Positions 2,203 to 64,000 of a DNA stretch of 64,000 bases are shown here, piece by piece. Both the position numbers and the translations under genes were made by a program. Source of the stretch: Aureococcus anophagefferens (lineage: Eukaryota; Sar; Pelagophyceae; Pelagomonadales; Pelagomonadaceae); contig NW_008705566.1 of assembly GCF_000186865.1 (NCBI RefSeq), positions 2,287,699 through 2,351,698 of the forward strand, written 5' to 3'. Position 1 is the first letter of the stretch, and each line of letters opens with the position of its first letter. Under the pieces are notes generated by a model that saw only the letters and a program-made list of their open reading frames with translations, made no database searches and was not told the DNA's origin.

Positions 2203-5200
2203 ATGATCGCGCGTGTCGCTCTCCTCGTCGCCGTGCTGGCGCCGTGCCTCGGCGGCGCGACGAAGACGACACCCGAGGGCTCGGCGGCCATCGTCGAGCT
2301 GCGCGACCACGCGCGCCTCGCGGCCGTCGTCGCGCAGGCGCGGACGGCGCTCCCGCTCGACTGGATCGTGCACGTCTTCCACGGCCCGCGCAACGGCGAC
2401 GTCGTGGCGTCGCACGGCCCGCTCCGCGCCGCGCTGCGGGCCGGCACCGTCGTCCAGCACAAGCTCGCGAAGGCGTCGCGCGACGGCGGCTCCTCGAAAG
2501 ACCACTACGGCTACTCGAACGCCAAGGACTACGCCGCGCGCACGGGCTGGTACAACCGGCTCCTCGGGTCGCCGTCCTTCTGGCGGCGCTTCGCGTCGGA
2601 GTACGTCCTGATCTTCGAGCTCGACGCCGCGTTCTGCGACCGGCCGTCGGCGCCGCTCGCGTCGTTCCTCGGCTACGCCTACGTCGGCGCGCCCTGGAAG
2701 GACTGCGACGCCAGGGCGCGCCCGTCGGCGAAGTGCGTCGGCAACTCGGGGCTGTCGCTCTGGCGCGCGGCGCCCGCCGTCGAGCTCGCGGCGCGCGCGC
2801 CGCCGCGGGGCCGCGAGCACGTCGACCGCTGGGCGTCGCGCGGGTTCCGGGGCCGCAACGCGTCGGCCGTCGCGCCGGAGGTCCTGGCGGCGAGGTTCAG
2901 CGTCGAGACGACCTACGCCGGGGGCTACACGCCCTTTGGCGTCCACGCCGCGGACCGCTTCCTGTCCGGATCGAATCGCGACGAGCTTTTAAAGCGATGC
3001 CCCGCGGCGTGCGACCTCTTCGCGTTCCGCGGGGTGCCGGCGCCGAAGGCCTGCGCGCGACGAACAGCGTCCACGGACTTCTTCCTGCTGCACCCGATGA
3101 AGTGCGGCGGCTCCGCGCTGTGCGCGGCCGCGTGCGCCGCGCGCGACGAGCCCTACGACCGCCATCGCAACTGCCGGCCCGACGGCGAGGCCGCGCCGGC
3201 CTGCGGCGTCACGGCGCTCGAGGTCTTCGACGCCAAGGGCCGCTTCCCCGCGGCGGGGCTGCTGGCGGCGGCGCTCGGCGGCGCGAAGACGACGGTTTTG
3301 CTCGCGCGCGATCCCGTCGTCCGCTTCCTGAGCCACGCGCGCATGGCCTGGTTCTCGAAGCTCGACGTCAAGAAGAAGGGCTGGCTCGACAAACTACTGG
3401 ACACGCCGGGCGACACGCTCGCGACCATGCACCTGCGCAATTTCCAGACGCGGCACCTCGTCGGCGGCTTCGGGACGCCCGTGCCGGGCCTCGCGTGCGA
3501 CGAGGCGGCGACGGACCGCGCGACGCGCGTCGTCGACCGCTTCGACGTCGTGTTGAACCCGGCGGATCGGCCCGAGGCGTCGGCGGCGGTGGCCCGGGAC
3601 CGGCTCGGCGTGTCGCTGGACGTGTCCGAGGACGCGCGGCGCGGCGGCGCGCGAAAAGCGCGGACGACAGCCGAGGCCTACGCCGAGGACCACGGCATCG
3701 TCGTCTCAACGCGGGCCCTCGCGCGGCTCCGGGAGGCGAACCTGTGCGACGTCGCCGTCGTCGACCGCGTCAACGCGCGCCTCGACGGCCGCCGCCGGCT
3801 CCTCAAGAAGGCGAAGAAGCGGATCCCGCCCGTCGGCGTCCACGAGCGGATCCCGCCCGTCGGCGTCCACCGCGGCCCCTACAAGAAGCCCCCGAAGGAC
3901 CCCGCCGTCGTCCAGGCTCTGGCGGCGCGCACGATGATGACGTCCGACGCGCCGAAGTCGCACGCGCCCATGCACCGCGCGCACGCGGCGGAGTCCGCCG
4001 CCGCGAAGGCGCCCCCGGCCGCGGCGAACGCGGCGAACGCGTCCCTCCCGACCTACGCGCCGTCGCCGGCGGCCGCGACCTACGCGCCGACGGCCTCGAC
4101 CTTCTCCGACGCCTGCGGCGCCGTCGAGGCGGCCGGCGGCGTCGAGGTCTGCTCGCGGCCCGACTGGGCCGCGCGCGTCCCCGGCCCCGCGGTCTTCGCG
4201 CGCGGGTCCCCCACGGGCCCCGTCTACCTCTTCGTCATCAGCGACGGGTCCTCGGCGTCGACGCCCGTGCTCATGCTCCTGGCGCAGTCCATCCGCGTGC
4301 GGACCCTGTGCGTGCTGGGCGTCTGGGCCTGCGAGGGCGAGAAGGCGCTCGTCCGCGAGGGCATCATGACGATGGCGCAGCGCGACGCGCTCCACGGCGG
4401 CAACTACAGCGCCTTCGCGCCCGGCGACGTCGACTGGCCCGCGGCCTTCGCCGAGTTCGACAAGGGCTGGGCCGCCGCGCGCGAGGCGCAGCTGAAATCG
4501 ATCCTCGACGTCCCCGAGGACGAGCGGCCGAAACTGCCCTCCTCGAAAGACTCCGTCTTCGTCGACAAGTCGCCGGCCTTCGCGGGCTGCGCGGCGAACA
4601 TCGCGGACGAGGCCGCGCGGCGGAACCGGCGCGTCGCGTTCCTTTTTTTGACGCGCTTTGTCTGCGACGCCGGCCCTCCCAAGGCCGACGGCCGCGGCGG
4701 CGCGCTCTGGGCCCGCGAGCTCCAGCGTCTGGCGAACGACCGGCGCGCCGTCGAGGCCCGCGGCCACCCGACGCTATCCGTGCGCTACGAGGACCTCGCG
4801 CGGCGGCCGCGGGACGTCGCGGACCGGCTCCGCGCGTGGCTGCCGAGCCTCGGCGCGATCAACCCGGCGAAGATGGCGAACCGACAGTTCGTCTTCGGCC
4901 AGGGCAAGGCCCGGTCCCACGCGCGCGGCAAGCAGTGGCTGGAGCGGTTGAACGCCATCGAGACGCACTTTGGCGCGCGGCCGCCGACGACCCGGGAGGT
5001 CTGCACGAGGGTGTCGGCGGCCGTCGCGCGCGACGCGGCCATGTTCGGCTACACAAAGAAAGGGGCGCCCGCGCCGACGCCCGCGCCGACGCCCGCGCCG
5101 CCGCGGCCCGCGGCCGCGCCGCCGAACGCCGCCGGAGTCTTTTTTGGCGCGATCTACGCCGCGGGCGCGGTTCTTGTTGCGTGGATCGCGAGCCGCCGCG

Positions 5201-56704: not shown

Positions 56705-58687
56705 ATGCCACCGCAGCGGGTGCTTACTAGATGCGTTGCGTTGATCGCGACCGCCGACGCTCTCGCAGCGCCGCGGAGCTACCTGCGCAACGAGCTCTCG
56801 CAGTTGCTCCTCCAGCGGGCGCGCACCGGCGCCGCAAACTTTCAAAAAAACAAATCGCCGTCGGCGAGGCAGCTGCCTGCGCGCGCGCCGCTTCGCCCCG
56901 CGGCACATCCCCAGCGACGCGCCAAGCTCGCCGCGCGACATCGCGCGCGACGCGCCGCGACCTCGAACCTCCTTGCTCGAAGAGCCGCGGCCGCGCGATC
57001 GAATCGGAGCCGCGCCGCTCGTAGACCGGCCGCTTCCCTCCCGCAGGCCGTGCAGACGCAGGTCTGCTACCTCGCCGGGTTCCACGATGAGCCCAAGGCG
57101 AAGTGGGTCGCGGCCTTTGGCGAGCCGTCCGTCACGCTCGACGTCGAGCGCGTCTCGGACAAATCCGTCCAGCCGCGGTACCACGGCCTCGACGCGTTCT
57201 GCGAGGAGAGCGGGACGCCGGACGCCGTGGACTACTTCAGCGCGATGATCCGCGCGGCGACCGTGCGCTACTCCGTGCGCTACGAGGTCGGCACCGTCGA
57301 CGACGGCCGCGGGAGCGCCGCGGCGGCGGCGCCCGAGGGCCTCGCGGGGGCGACGTCCGGCGCCGCGGACCTGCTCGGCTCGGCGTGCCAGTTCCCGGAC
57401 GCGAGCCTCGCGCCCAAGTACACGGCCTCGAAGGCCGCGGGCGGCTCGTCGGCGCCGTCCTGGATGGCCGGCGGCGTCGGCGCGGCGGCCGCGAGCCGGC
57501 GGCGGAACCCGTTCCTGCGGCGCGAGCGGACCGCGCCCGCGTGGCGCGCGGCCTGCGACGCGTCGGGCGTCGCGTCCTACGCCGACTTTGGCGTCCGACT
57601 CGGCGCCTCGGCGGCCGGGGCGCCCGCCGGCCGCCGCGTGGCGGCCCCGACGGCCGCCGCGTGGCGCGCGGCCTGCGACGCGTCGGGCGTCGCGTCCTAC
57701 GCGGACTTTGGCATCAAGCTCGCCGCCGCCGGCGTCGTCAGCAAGGCGCCGGCCGCACCGGCGGTCTCCGCGGCCGCCCCCGCCCGGGCCGTCCCCTCGC
57801 TCATGAGCCACTTCGCCGACGCGGCGCCCGCCGCGTCCGCCCGGGCCTCGAGAGCCGCCGGGGCCTCGAGAGCCGCGGACACGTCGTCCGCGCCGCCGTG
57901 GATGGCCGCGGGCCCGGCGCCGCGCGCGTCGCCCGCCGCCAGGGCCGCGGCCGCCCCCGCCGAGGCCGGCCCCTTGGCCTCCAACCCCGCGGCCGCGTGC
58001 CGGCGGCGGAACCCGTTCCTCAAGCGCGAGAAGAAGTACGTCGAGTACGACGAGACCATCGAGCCCAAGCAGATGGCGCAGCTCATCATGCGGACGCGCG
58101 AGCAGCTCGCGGCGGAGATCTCCTACGACCTGCGCGCGCTCGTGCCCGACGCGTCGCCCGCGAGCGTCGCGAACATGGCCGCGCGGCCCGCGGCGTCGAT
58201 GTACGACCACTCGCCGCTCCGCCGCGCGTCCTTCGACCTGTGCGAGCGCCTCGCGACGCGGACGGCGGCGCTCATCGCGATCCAGGAGGTGCCGGCGGCC
58301 TGGGCCCGCTACCTCAAGACGCGCCTCGCGCCCGACGACGTCGACCGGCGACCGCGCGCCGCGGCGCCGCCGGCCGGCGACGACGGCGGCGCGCTCGCGC
58401 GCGAGCTCGCGGACCGCGTCTGCGAGCTGCAGCAGTACCGCGACGCGCTCGGCGACCACTGCGCGGACACGGGCAAGGCCGCGGCCTGGCTCCAGGACCT
58501 GCTGGACACGCCGGCCTTCGAGAGCGCGAGCGGCTCGGCCATCGACCCGCCGGCGATCGCGAACAACATCCTCCGCATCCGCGGCGAGCTCGCGGCGGCC
58601 TGGGCCGAGGCCATCGTCGACGACGTCAAGGGGGAGCACGCGGTGCTCCGCCGGGAGATCCTCGAGCGCTCACTCGTCGCCGAGTGA
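56705..58687 (+). CDS. Unknown protein with internal duplicated segments, about 660 aa
   Basis: The frame is open from the ATG at 56705; the first 115 residues are basic low-complexity and may include an unrecognised intron (a CTCCCGCAG acceptor-like site precedes the ordered region at 57047). From VCYLAGFHDEPKAKWVAAFG the sequence is ordered: FGEPSVTLDVERVSDKSVQP, RYHGLDAFCEESGTPDAVDY, FSAMIRAATVRYSVRYEVG. Two near-identical units follow (AWRAACDASGVASYADFGVR and AWRAACDASGVASYADFGIK), and two RRRNPFLRRE / RRRNPFLKRE motifs. The C-terminus is helical (LIMRTREQLAAEISYDLRAL, LRIRGELAAAWAEAIVDDVK). No family is recognised. A hydrophobic start (CVALIATADALAAPRSYL) hints at plastid targeting. Confidence 0.5.
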   Translation: MPPQRVLTRCVALIATADALAAPRSYLRNELSQLLLQRARTGAANFQKNKSPSARQLPARAPLRPAAHPQRRAKLAARHRARRAATSNLLARRAAAARSNRSRAARRPAASLPQAVQTQVCYLAGFHDEPKAKWVAAFGEPSVTLDVERVSDKSVQPRYHGLDAFCEESGTPDAVDYFSAMIRAATVRYSVRYEVGTVDDGRGSAAAAAPEGLAGATSGAADLLGSACQFPDASLAPKYTASKAAGGSSAPSWMAGGVGAAAASRRRNPFLRRERTAPAWRAACDASGVASYADFGVRLGASAAGAPAGRRVAAPTAAAWRAACDASGVASYADFGIKLAAAGVVSKAPAAPAVSAAAPARAVPSLMSHFADAAPAASARASRAAGASRAADTSSAPPWMAAGPAPRASPAARAAAAPAEAGPLASNPAAACRRRNPFLKREKKYVEYDETIEPKQMAQLIMRTREQLAAEISYDLRALVPDASPASVANMAARPAASMYDHSPLRRASFDLCERLATRTAALIAIQEVPAAWARYLKTRLAPDDVDRRPRAAAPPAGDDGGALARELADRVCELQQYRDALGDHCADTGKAAAWLQDLLDTPAFESASGSAIDPPAIANNILRIRGELAAAWAEAIVDDVKGEHAVLRREILERSLVAE

Positions 58688-59770: not shown

Positions 59771-62700
59771 ATGGACGACCTCGACATGGGCGCGCTCGAC
59801 ATTTTAGGCGCGGGCATCGTGACGACCAACGAGGCGTCCAAGGACCCGGAGGAGGAGGCGCGCAAGGCCGAGGCCGCGCGCCACGAGGCGGCGTCCGACG
59901 CGCTGAGCACGGCCATCAAGACGGAGGCGCTGAGCAAGGGCCTCGCGACGAAGTTCAAGCTGACGCACGCGAACAAGGACGACGCGGGCAAGCGCGTGAA
60001 CCTGCTGCTCGTCGACCAGGTGACGTCGACGTCCGTGCGGCTCCGGTGGACGCGGCCGAAGACGCGCTACCGCCTCGACGGCGTGCGCATCATGATGCGC
60101 GAGTCCTACGGCGGCCAGGGCTTCGGGAGCGGCGCGTTCACGACCGTCGTCGAGCACACGCGCGAGCCGGAGACGCGGAGCCGCGTCGTCACGTCGCTCA
60201 AGTCGGACACGGAGTACGAGTTCCAGCTCGCGGCCGTGCACGACCGCGCCCAGAAGAAGGGCGGCGCCAAGCCCATGATCGTCGACGGCACGAGGGTGAC
60301 GTCGAACCCCATCCGGACGACGAAGGCGACGTACTGCCAGGCGTTCTTCTTCGAGGAGCCGCAGGAGATCGACCGGCTCTGGTCCGTGTTCTTCGGGATC
60401 TTGACCCGGGGCGGCGAGGGCGGCGCCAACGCGCTGGCGTCGGGCGACGACTACGTGCTCGCGCAGAAGCTGACCATCGCCCAGAGCGACCCGAAGCCCG
60501 CCGCGCCGTCGGACGACGACCCGCACCCGCGGCCGTGCTGCCTCACGGGGCGCCAGTGCCTCGTGCTGAACCTGCCCGGCGGCCTCGACGGCGGCTGCTG
60601 CGCGGACATCGAGGTCAAGGAGAGCCGGCGCTACCGCGTCGAGGTCTTTGTGTACCACGACTGCTCCACGGACCGCGAGGAGCTGCCGCACGCTGTGTGG
60701 AATTCAAATCTTCAACCCGACTTCAATGTGCACGTATTCGAATGTTTTGACACAAGCACTTCCGCCGTGCTTCGAGAATTCGACGAGAGCAATCGATTCG
60801 TCCAAAAATCAACCAAATCGGCTTCGATGTGACCGAGCGAGAGAGTTCTCAAGTTTGGCCCCGACGTCCCAGCTCACTGGTTGATTTGCACACAGGCCGC
60901 ACGACTCGGGCTGCGCGCTCGTGGGCTTCGACTACAAGGACCGCTACTCGGAATCGAAGCGGGCGCGCATGGTGCGCCAGTGGGAGAAGCTCGAGGTGGA
61001 GATCATCGGCGCGCCGGGCGACCGCGCGAAGATCGCCGTGCAGGCGACGCGCAGTGTGGAAATCAAATCTTCAACCCGACTTCAATGTGAGCGTACGCGA
61101 CAGTTTCGACGCAACCTTTTTGGCTGCGCTTCGAGAACTCGACGAGAGCAATCGATTCGTCCAAAAATCAGCCGAATCGACGTCGATGTGACCGAGCTAG
61201 AGAGTTCTGAAGTTTGGTCAGGACCACCCAAACCAGCGGTTGAATTCGGCACAGGCGACGCGCATCTACCAGGGCGCGGTGCTTTTGGACGCGTGCCGCG
61301 TCTTCATGCTCGGCCGCGACGAGGTCGGCGACTGCTGCTCCGAGCTCGAGAAGGCCGCGGGCGAGCCGCGGCTCAACGAGACGGGCGTCCTGCGCGTCAC
61401 GGTGCTCGAGGTCATCAACCTGCCGCGCTTCGCGGGCGAGGCGCCGCCGCAGCTGCCCGACAAGGCCTACCCCCTCGCGGAGAAGGACGCGGCGACGATC
61501 CTCGACGACGACGGCCTCGACGACGACGAGCCCAAGGTCGCGCGGCGCGCGACGGTGAACAAGAAGGCGAGCGGCAAGGAGCGGCCGTCGAAGCCGCGGC
61601 TCGTCATCAAGTGGGGCGCGAAGGTCGTCGGCGAGTCGGAGCCCTTCGACCCCATCGAGGAGGAGAAGCACGCGCTGAGCCCCGTCGGCGGCGTCACGCC
61701 CCAGGCCATCGCCGTCGACGCCGCGCGGCCGACGTGGAGGGAGTGCGACACGACGCGCCACGTCCTCAAGGTCAAGGCGTCCGCGAAGCTCGGCGGCATC
61801 GGCGTCACGGACAATATCGCGGGCCAGGTCGCCAAGTCCATGATGCGCGACTCCGTGCTGGAGATCGAGGTCCAGGACACGGCCGTCCGCGGCGTCGCCG
61901 CGCGCGCGCGGCGCCGCAAGTTCGAGCTCGGCTCCGTCGGCGACGCGCAGAAGGCGCGCGAGGGCGCCGCGGGCAAGCGGCGGACGACGATGCGGAGCCT
62001 CGTCAAGCGGCCGGGCACGCCGTCCAAGGGCGCGGGCGACAAGAGCGACGACGAGCAGAAGGCCGAGGACGACGCGGCGGCCCGGGAGGCGGAGCGCGAG
62101 CGCCTCGTCGAGGAGCGGAGGACGCGGGCCGCGGAGGAGAAGGCCCAGCGCGCGCGGCGGCAGGACGCGCTCCTCGCGCGGCGGCAGACCGCCGTCTTCG
62201 GCCTCGCGCCGGCGCAGGCGCGGCCCACGAGCCCCGGGAGCGAGCAGCGCGAGGCGCCGGGCAAGCTCCCGCCGCGGCCGGGCACGCCGGGCACGGACAG
62301 CGAGGACGAGCACCTCCGGGAGCAGATCGTCGACACGTCGAAGACGGAGACGCAGCACGTCGACGCGCTCGCGTCGAACGCGGGCCTGGCCATCGCGGGC
62401 CAGCAGGGCCTCCTCGCCGCGTCGCGCGGCGAGCAGCGCCGCGGCGGCGGCCGCATGACCATGTTCGGCCGCAAGAAGCCCGACGAGGACGACGGCGGCG
62501 GCGCGCCCATCGGGCGCCTGCGGCTGACGACGCGCGAGCTCATGTGCGCGCCGCCGTACCGCGCGTGGTACCGCCTCGAGGACGAGACGGGCCTGACGCA
62601 CATGTGCGTCGCGCTCCTCGTGCGCTTCTGGGACCCCGTGCCCCGCGTGCCCGTCTTCAGCTTCATGGCGCGCGACGTCGCCAAGAAGGAGAAGGAGGCG

Positions 62701-64000
62701 GAGAAGGAGCGCGCGCTCCTGTCGTCGAAGACGAAGCAGTTCCAGGAGGAGAAGCGGAAGCAGCGCGAGATCGCCAAGTCCATCGGGGCCCTGAGCCGCA
62801 AGCTCGCGACGGAGTGCCTCAACCCGAAGCAGCGCAACACCTACTTCGGCAAGCTCCTCTTCATGCTCGGCTGCTCCGCGGGCGCGCGCGTCGCCAAGGC
62901 GGGGTCGTCCAAGTCGAAGAAGGAGGTCAACGACGGCGAGACGAAGAAGAACCTCCAGGGCGCCATCGCGACGATGACCATCGACCGCATGGACCCGACG
63001 GAGGCCCAGCAGCGCATCCCCGTGCCCGAGCTCCTGAAGCGCAAGGCGGAGATGGTCCGCCAGGGCGTCCTCGAGGAGTGCGTCGCGAACCTCTGCAACC
63101 CGCGGACCCAGGAGAGCGCCGCGGCGCTCATCGCGGCCGTCGTCACGTTCCCGCGCGTCCTCATCGTCAACTCGTCCGATATCCACCGCTGCTCCGCGGC
63201 GCTCCAGGGCCTCGTGCGGGGCCTGGGCGTCCTCGACTTCATCGAGGAGGCCTGCGACGTCTACTGCGCGGAGATCCAGGGCGCCGGCGCGTCCGCCAAG
63301 GACGACGACAACGCCATCAGCGACGCGAGCCGCGCCGTCGCGCCCATGTCCGTCGCGGAGAAGGCGTGCGCCGCGGCCTTCGAGGGCGGCCGCTGCGCGC
63401 CCGCGCGGGCGCCGCCGGCGGCGACGGCCGGCGCGCTGCTCGCCGTCGTCTTCGGCGGCGCGCGGACCATGCTCGTCACGGAGATGAGCCAGCGGCCCTG
63501 CCTCTTCCCCGTGCTCGCGCGCGCGGTCCAGGAGAACGTGCCCTGCGCGAAGAAGTGCCTCGAGAACCTCAACTTCGCCATCCAGTTCCCGCCGAAGCTC
63601 GTGCACCAGTACCGGCGCTTCCGCGTGCTCGTGCCCTACCTCCACGACGAGTACTGGCGCTGCCCGTCGCTCGAGATGGAGATGGACGCGAACGAGGAGG
63701 AGATGCAGAACGCGTGCCGCGGCGCGCGGAAGCGCGCGCGCGCCGCGGAGCGGCACCGCCTCGCGACGGGCGCTTTCCCGCGGCGCGTGCGCGTGCCCGT
63801 GCGCGACACGCCCCTCAAGGTCGCCGACGCGTCGTCCGACTTCTCGACCAAGGTCACGGCCGCGGGGAGCCACGCGTTCTTCCTCGAGGACGCCGCGCGG
63901 CCGGACCTCGAGTTCGTCGCCGTCGCCTACGGCGAGATGCGCGAGGGCGCGCTCGAGGACCTGAGCGCGGAGATGGACGCCGCCGTGGGCAGCCCGCGGC
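59771..64000 (+). CDS. Large FN3/C2-like cytosolic protein, three exons seen, 3' end beyond window
   Basis: Exons 59771-60684, 60896-61043 and 61255 to the window edge, if introns are taken to include one copy of each 8-bp duplication; about 1269 residues so far. Start MDDLDMGALDILGAGIVTTN. An FN3 domain lies at about 75-180 (VNLLLVDQVTSTSVRLRWTR, SDTEYEFQLAAVHDR). Exon 3 begins ATRIYQGAVLLDACRVFMLG and soon has GVLRVTVLEVINLPRFAG, which looks like the first strand of a C2 domain. Its later strands (TWRECDTTRHVLKVKASAKL, DSVLEIEVQDTAVRG) come after an insertion. Charged helices (AEERERLVEERRTRAAEEKA type) and an all-helical region follow. No catalytic motif is seen. Possibly a membrane- or cytoskeleton-linked scaffold. 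Confidence 0.7.
60693..60895 (+). mobile_element. Introner element copy 1 (203 bp) acting as an intron
   Basis: The segment runs from CTGTGTGGAATTC to TTGCACACAG, with short terminal inverted repeats (CTGTGTG / CACACAG). It is bordered by the direct 8-bp duplication GCCGCACG (60685-60692 and 60896-60903). It interrupts a coding sequence that resumes in frame after it (ELPH, then PHDSG with one copy removed). Its 203-bp length and about 80% of its sequence are shared with copy 2. The GC content is about 50%, far below the flanking exons. Confidence 0.9.
61052..61254 (+). mobile_element. Introner element copy 2 (203 bp) acting as an intron
   Basis: Begins CAGTGTGGAAATC and ends TTCGGCACAG, bordered by the 8-bp duplication GCGACGCG (61044-61051 and 61255-61262). 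Removing the element plus one duplication copy restores VQATRIYQG. It is the same length as copy 1 and shares long blocks, for example TCTTCAACCCGACTTCAATG and GAGAGCAATCGATTCGTCCA. Confidence 0.9.

Follow-up and report, generated by a model that had tools for sequence, protein, structure and literature searches.

Two introner elements in a fibronectin type III domain gene of Aureococcus anophagefferens and the strand-specific splice-site constraint on their transposon family

The stretch of Aureococcus anophagefferens DNA analyzed here (the window, 64,000 nucleotides) ends within a gene for a fibronectin type III domain protein, which starts with the ATG at 59771 on the forward strand and runs past the window end (59771..64000). 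A profile search places PF00041 at residues 80-159 of its product (32.4 bits, cut-off 25), and 1145 of 1150 aligned residues are identical to those of the deposited A. anophagefferens protein JL721_1709. The coding sequence is interrupted by two 203-bp elements that lie 156 bp apart in the same orientation, all features of this gene described in the following being on the forward strand. Element 1 occupies 60693..60895, with the ends of a terminal inverted repeat at 60693-60707 and 60881-60895, and is flanked by an 8-bp direct duplication, GCCGCACG, whose first copy at 60685..60692 exactly matches the second copy at 60896..60903. Element 2 occupies 61052..61254, with repeat ends at 61052-61066 and 61240-61254, and has a duplication of its own, GCGACGCG, at 61044..61051 with an exact match at 61255..61262. 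In both cases the first copy begins with GC, the putative 5' splice site, while the second copy would stay in the exon. The predicted introns at 60685..60895 (phase 2) and 61044..61254 (phase 0) each comprise 211 nt with GC...AG borders and enclose an exon of 148 nt (60896..61043), which is about nucleosome-sized. When the two elements are aligned, as a pair cut two bases out of register, 164 of 205 columns are identical (80%). Elsewhere in the window, a 120-bp unit is found twice in tandem with 80% matching (57537-57778), and a 27-bp unit that recurs in tandem about 19.5 times (333-853) perhaps corresponds to a repetitive protein segment.

Excision of both elements together with one duplication copy each (211 nt twice) leaves a single open frame of 1269 codons, which extends from the ATG at 59771 to the window end. 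If element 1 is retained, a stop arises at codon 354, and retention of element 2 alone shifts the frame, with no stop as far as 61400. Exact removal at both places also agrees with P0004, a relative of the host protein (66% identity at 99% query coverage) without extra residues at junction 1 or 2, the record of which may be genomic DNA or transcript. The original prediction, which had described two 203-bp insertions of about 80% identity at a distance of 156 bp in one coding sequence, perfect 8-bp duplications at both and restoration of the protein upon their removal, is thus confirmed in these respects. It had further proposed a short terminal inverted repeat, which is indeed present but longer than stated, comprising 15 bp (CTGTGTGGAATTCAA) in an alignment of 38 copies. 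A degenerate form of this repeat, with up to two mismatches, matches the window exactly four times, i. e. at the four element ends, compared with a mean of 0.31 in shuffled windows, none of which reached four matches in 100 shuffles. A third copy of the element was not found within the window.

Across the genome (49.05 Mb on 86 contigs), a 22-mer core of the element has 1505 matches with up to two mismatches, split 758 to 747 between the strands, and one exact form of the inverted repeat occurs in 255 copies; the reversed controls gave no match in either case. Among the 39 other matches listed for each element, relatives of element 1 are 91-95% and relatives of element 2 are 93-96% identical. 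Altogether 108 loci were read, eight of them found via element 1, 30 via element 2, 40 more from both lists and 30 via the internal core alone, the first 78 being skewed towards close relatives of the window's two elements. These loci contain 140 matches, which are reduced to 131 distinct copies when four matches cut by a locus edge and five repeats are subtracted. The 8-bp duplication is perfect in 100 of the distinct copies, matches at seven of eight positions in 22 and at six of eight in five, with fewer matches in the remaining four, and the length is exactly 203 bp in 109. Coding-like flanks are found for 117 of the 131 copies, compared with a share among sites in general of 60% for the window and 69% for the copies' flanks. 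Further genic copies with duplications, which the original prediction had expected, thus exist in large number. In contrast, its description of the double insertion as recent finds no support: the two elements are 80% identical to each other as opposed to 94-96% for relatives elsewhere, and three other database proteins of the gene (one assigned to A. anophagefferens, the other two lacking a source) show the junction residues of these insertions at one or both sites. Among the loci read, L113 (1-261) holds an 88-bp version of the element that has lost internal sequence and is flanked by an exact 8-bp duplication, GCGGCCGT, and in L116 (1-261) the match to the element ends after about 63 bases, after which GC-rich, gene-like sequence resumes.

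The coding strand at each copy was called after excision of the element and one duplication, with the host gene serving as training set for codon usage. From the 117 copies that could be strand-called, two with poorer duplications were dropped to give a set of 115 (63 sense, 52 antisense), which includes the window's own pair and thus two copies lying in the training gene. Read on the coding strand, the first duplication starts with GY in 115 of 115 copies (GC in 73, GT in 42), i. e. in 63/63 sense and 52/52 antisense insertions, while GY occupies the mirror position in only 33/115 (Fisher p 2e-35). The background of GY in coding sequence is 20.6%, which the mirror end slightly exceeds (p 0.04). 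At the opposite border, AG is present at the 3' end of the element in 114/115 copies on the coding strand, with 89/115 for the mirror. The sole copy without terminal AG, L016, has a slipped boundary; its CACAG is found nine bases upstream, an end that gives a duplication match of 3/8. Since it is the gene's strand that this constraint tracks, irrespective of the element's own, it is unlikely to stem from the transposase, whereas selection for splicing can produce it. All 122 well-bounded copies among the 131 could be spliced in at least one orientation, and two poorly bounded copies, in L015 and L091, in neither.

An earlier strand test covered the first 90 copies with seven or eight matching duplication bases, taken from 97 distinct ones. 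Here, splice sites and codon bias pointed to the same strand in 56 of 56 copies that were unambiguous and confidently called (35 sense, 21 antisense), the rest of the set being spliceable either way (24) or without confident call (10). For L021, which falls outside the confident set and has flanks that are far from coding-like, the best-scoring strand contradicts the prediction. A palindromic target preference, at which the first 38 loci had hinted, could be explained away, because the mirror end is barely above background once the coding strand is known; the hint is accounted for by mixed gene orientation.

Conservation of the reading frame was assessed on 103 copies with both flanks coding-like. 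Removal of 211 nt leaves the frame continuous in 100 of these and off by one or two in none, and in the remaining three the two flanks were called as coding on opposite strands. If the copies were retained, an in-frame stop would result in 104 of the 115 strand-called copies, and in 112 the length is not a multiple of three. Intron phases 0, 1 and 2 were observed 45, 27 and 43 times, respectively, compared with 45.7, 29.3 and 40.0 expected from the frequency of GY by codon position (n = 115). Taken together, the strand-specific splice-site constraint and the conserved frame indicate, as far as sequence can do so, that the copies are removed as introns. There was no sign that 5' sites had later changed from GC into GT: of 25 copies whose duplications mismatch at one or two bases, only two differ at position 2, where the exon copy has T and the intron copy C, and position 1 agrees in all.

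The pair in the host gene can hence with great confidence be attributed to a non-autonomous, MITE-like transposon, i. e. an introner element, that inserted twice independently and is spliced out as exact 211-nt introns. A transposase provided from elsewhere would insert the 203-bp element and in doing so duplicate 8 bp of the target. On the coding strand, the upstream copy of this duplication may then serve as 5' splice site, provided that it starts with GC or GT, while the 3' splice site would come from the CACAG that terminates the inverted repeat. Since CACAG is read outwards at both repeat ends, insertion in either orientation would yield a functional element. The spliceosome could then excise exactly 211 nt, with the original coding sequence remaining, and genic insertions without GY at the start of the duplication would be purged by selection.

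Deposited models of the host gene place the 5' splice site differently. They keep 12 extra nucleotides, visible as PHAV+PHD at junction 1 (P0002, P0003) and as ATRS+ATR at junction 2 (P0001, P0002), which consist of the 8-bp duplication plus element positions 1-4; the 5' site of the models is thus the GT at element positions 5-6. The element would then carry both splice sites, and splicing from this GT would add four amino acids per insertion. Not only do the database models P0001-P0003 read in this way at at least one junction, but Fig. 2F of PMC9860276 also gives the same 4+8 bp arithmetic for introners of Aureococcus sp. Moreover, positions 5-6 hold a GT or GC in 114/115 copies, and the 12 retained nucleotides create a stop in none of the 115, although the latter count is 0/115 under either 5' site and hence does not discriminate between the readings. 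However, a duplication that takes no part in splicing should be unconstrained, which is at odds with the 115/115 coding-strand GY versus 33/115 at the mirror, and positions 5-6 are not more conserved than their own mirror (GY in 114 versus 113 of 115). In addition, gene calling restricted to GT would necessarily miss the true site wherever the duplication begins with GC. Carriage of both splice sites by the element is therefore very improbable. The constraint data strongly favor the GY of the duplication as the predicted 5' splice site, and the 12-nt additions in the database gene models are probably spurious. Deposited models of the host gene, and perhaps of many other introner genes, carry four extra residues per affected junction.

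The use of the duplication's GY as 5' splice site also bears on the intron types of this alga. GC is found at 73 of the 115 borrowed 5' sites (63%), and since GC outnumbers GT 3.7-fold in the coding sequence around them, GT is favored only about twofold. Positions 3-8 of the duplication show no strong further consensus by eye. According to PMC3033335, 39.6% of the introns of A. anophagefferens are of the GC-AG type, the origin of which is termed an enigma, and the 5' end of its U1 is canonical. Borrowing from GC-rich coding sequence would provide a simple account of this abundance of GC-AG introns. An altered U1 RNA behind the GC sites was considered and dropped. A search of the genome for U1 gave no match, with the controls being silent too; the canonical 12-base U1 start has one match in the genome, as has its reversed control, and no RNA family was found at the place of this match at E up to 1. 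Conceivably, the four-residue additions of Aureococcus introners in Fig. 2F of PMC9860276 and the models with 12 additional nucleotides are both artefacts of GT calling, and the excess of GC-AG introns represents borrowed coding GC that is handled by a spliceosome needing little beyond GY. For this wider proposal, we regard the case as evenly balanced.

The splice sites and the genic location of the copies could alternatively be ascribed to spread on the RNA level, i. e. to reverse-spliced intron copies as proposed for fungal introners. All 122 well-bounded copies being spliceable in at least one orientation is in line with such a route, as are the coding-like surroundings, which are commoner than chance (117/131 versus 60% in the window and 69% at flank sites). 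Reverse splicing should, however, yield sense copies without duplication, while the copies observed here have 8-bp duplications along with inverted repeats and are inserted in both gene orientations (63 sense, 52 antisense), which renders this route very improbable as well. Local duplication of one element-bearing stretch, in place of two transpositions, would account for equal length, same orientation and the distance of 156 bp, but each element has its own, different 8-bp duplication and the pair is far less similar (80%) than are relatives elsewhere (94-96%), and this origin can practically be dismissed.

Transposase-mediated insertion, as preferred here, raises the question of the enzyme's source. 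Duplications of 8 bp, as found for this family, are typical of the hAT superfamily and are shared by other superfamilies. A search of the genome for hAT transposase (PF05699) gave no match, and no control genome matched either; the search for MULE was likewise without match, with controls matching in 3/14, and that for KDZ gave none in a setting without responding controls. The inverted repeat followed by a non-typical next base, used as a probe for an autonomous partner, led to 17 places, all of which are copies or deletion derivatives of the small element. That neither a transposase nor an autonomous relative turned up counts against the insertion model, although the searches had little power. 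Exact-pattern scans of IMG/VR with the internal core and with the paired ends returned nothing, a result that rules out close copies only and comes from a scan in which records close to the genome of the window may be missing. Viruses are mentioned as possible introner vectors in PMC12768974.

Neighboring copies are separated by 26 gaps, 17 of which remain after dropping poorly bounded or short copies, and 15 of these are below 700 bp. The 15 gaps show a period of 164 bp as the best of periods 120-229, and 2 of 5000 uniform simulations with the same period choice matched its strength, this being a simple null applied to a small sample. Among the dropped gaps, those of 129, 183, 354 and 461 bp fit the period and those of 40 and 63 bp do not, and the 156-bp gap of the window pair falls in the first of several gap clusters. 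The 164-bp period would fit with insertion between nucleosomes.

High copy number, target duplication, terminal inverted repeats, one carried and one co-opted predicted splice site, a coding sequence left unchanged by removal and a nucleosome-like spacing all mark the family as very probable introners of the DNA-transposon type. The strand-asymmetry test indicates, from the genome alone, that the elements persist where they are spliceable, and could be used on other introner families without RNA. Introners of A. anophagefferens were reportedly described by Huff, Zilberman and Roy in 2016 (Nature 538:533) as short DNA transposons with duplication and inverted repeat, for which one splice site is said to be carried and one co-opted, with exact removal, phase bias and nucleosome-sized spacing of nearby insertions. 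Every feature tested here is common to those introners and the window family, the comparison being one of descriptions and not of sequences. Introners are also present in large numbers in Micromonas pusilla, a high-GC alga of a lineage unrelated to Aureococcus, which is likened to the window family by description and not by element sequence.

Further parallels are available from the literature. PMC3033335 gives 22.2% GC-AG introns for M. pusilla, and PMC9481584 a characteristic length of about 210 bp for the introners of A. anophagefferens. PMC10228655 describes introners as co-opting splice sites and as inserting in either orientation, and a preference for nucleosome linkers is given in both PMC9860276 and PMC10228655. 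According to PMC9860276, introners are without sequence homology to each other except within a genus. The introners of Symbiodinium microadriaticum (PMC9860276 Fig. 2B) resemble the window family in their carried 3' site, a 5' site obtained from the duplication and an inverted repeat, but differ in having a 4-bp instead of an 8-bp duplication. Introner family 4 of Aureococcus sp., from a metagenome assembly (PMC9860276 Fig. 2F), shares the 8-bp duplication with the window family, and its 5' site four bases into the element corresponds to the site used by the deposited models of the host gene; the example shown (positions 3289-3365) is stated to add 12 bp to the transcript, whereas the 203-bp elements of the window family would be removed exactly. 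The transposon-borne intron gain put forward in the original prediction is thus supported by sequence, although not as a new example of something rare: the window pair is a textbook case of an already known phenomenon that has been described for A. anophagefferens itself.
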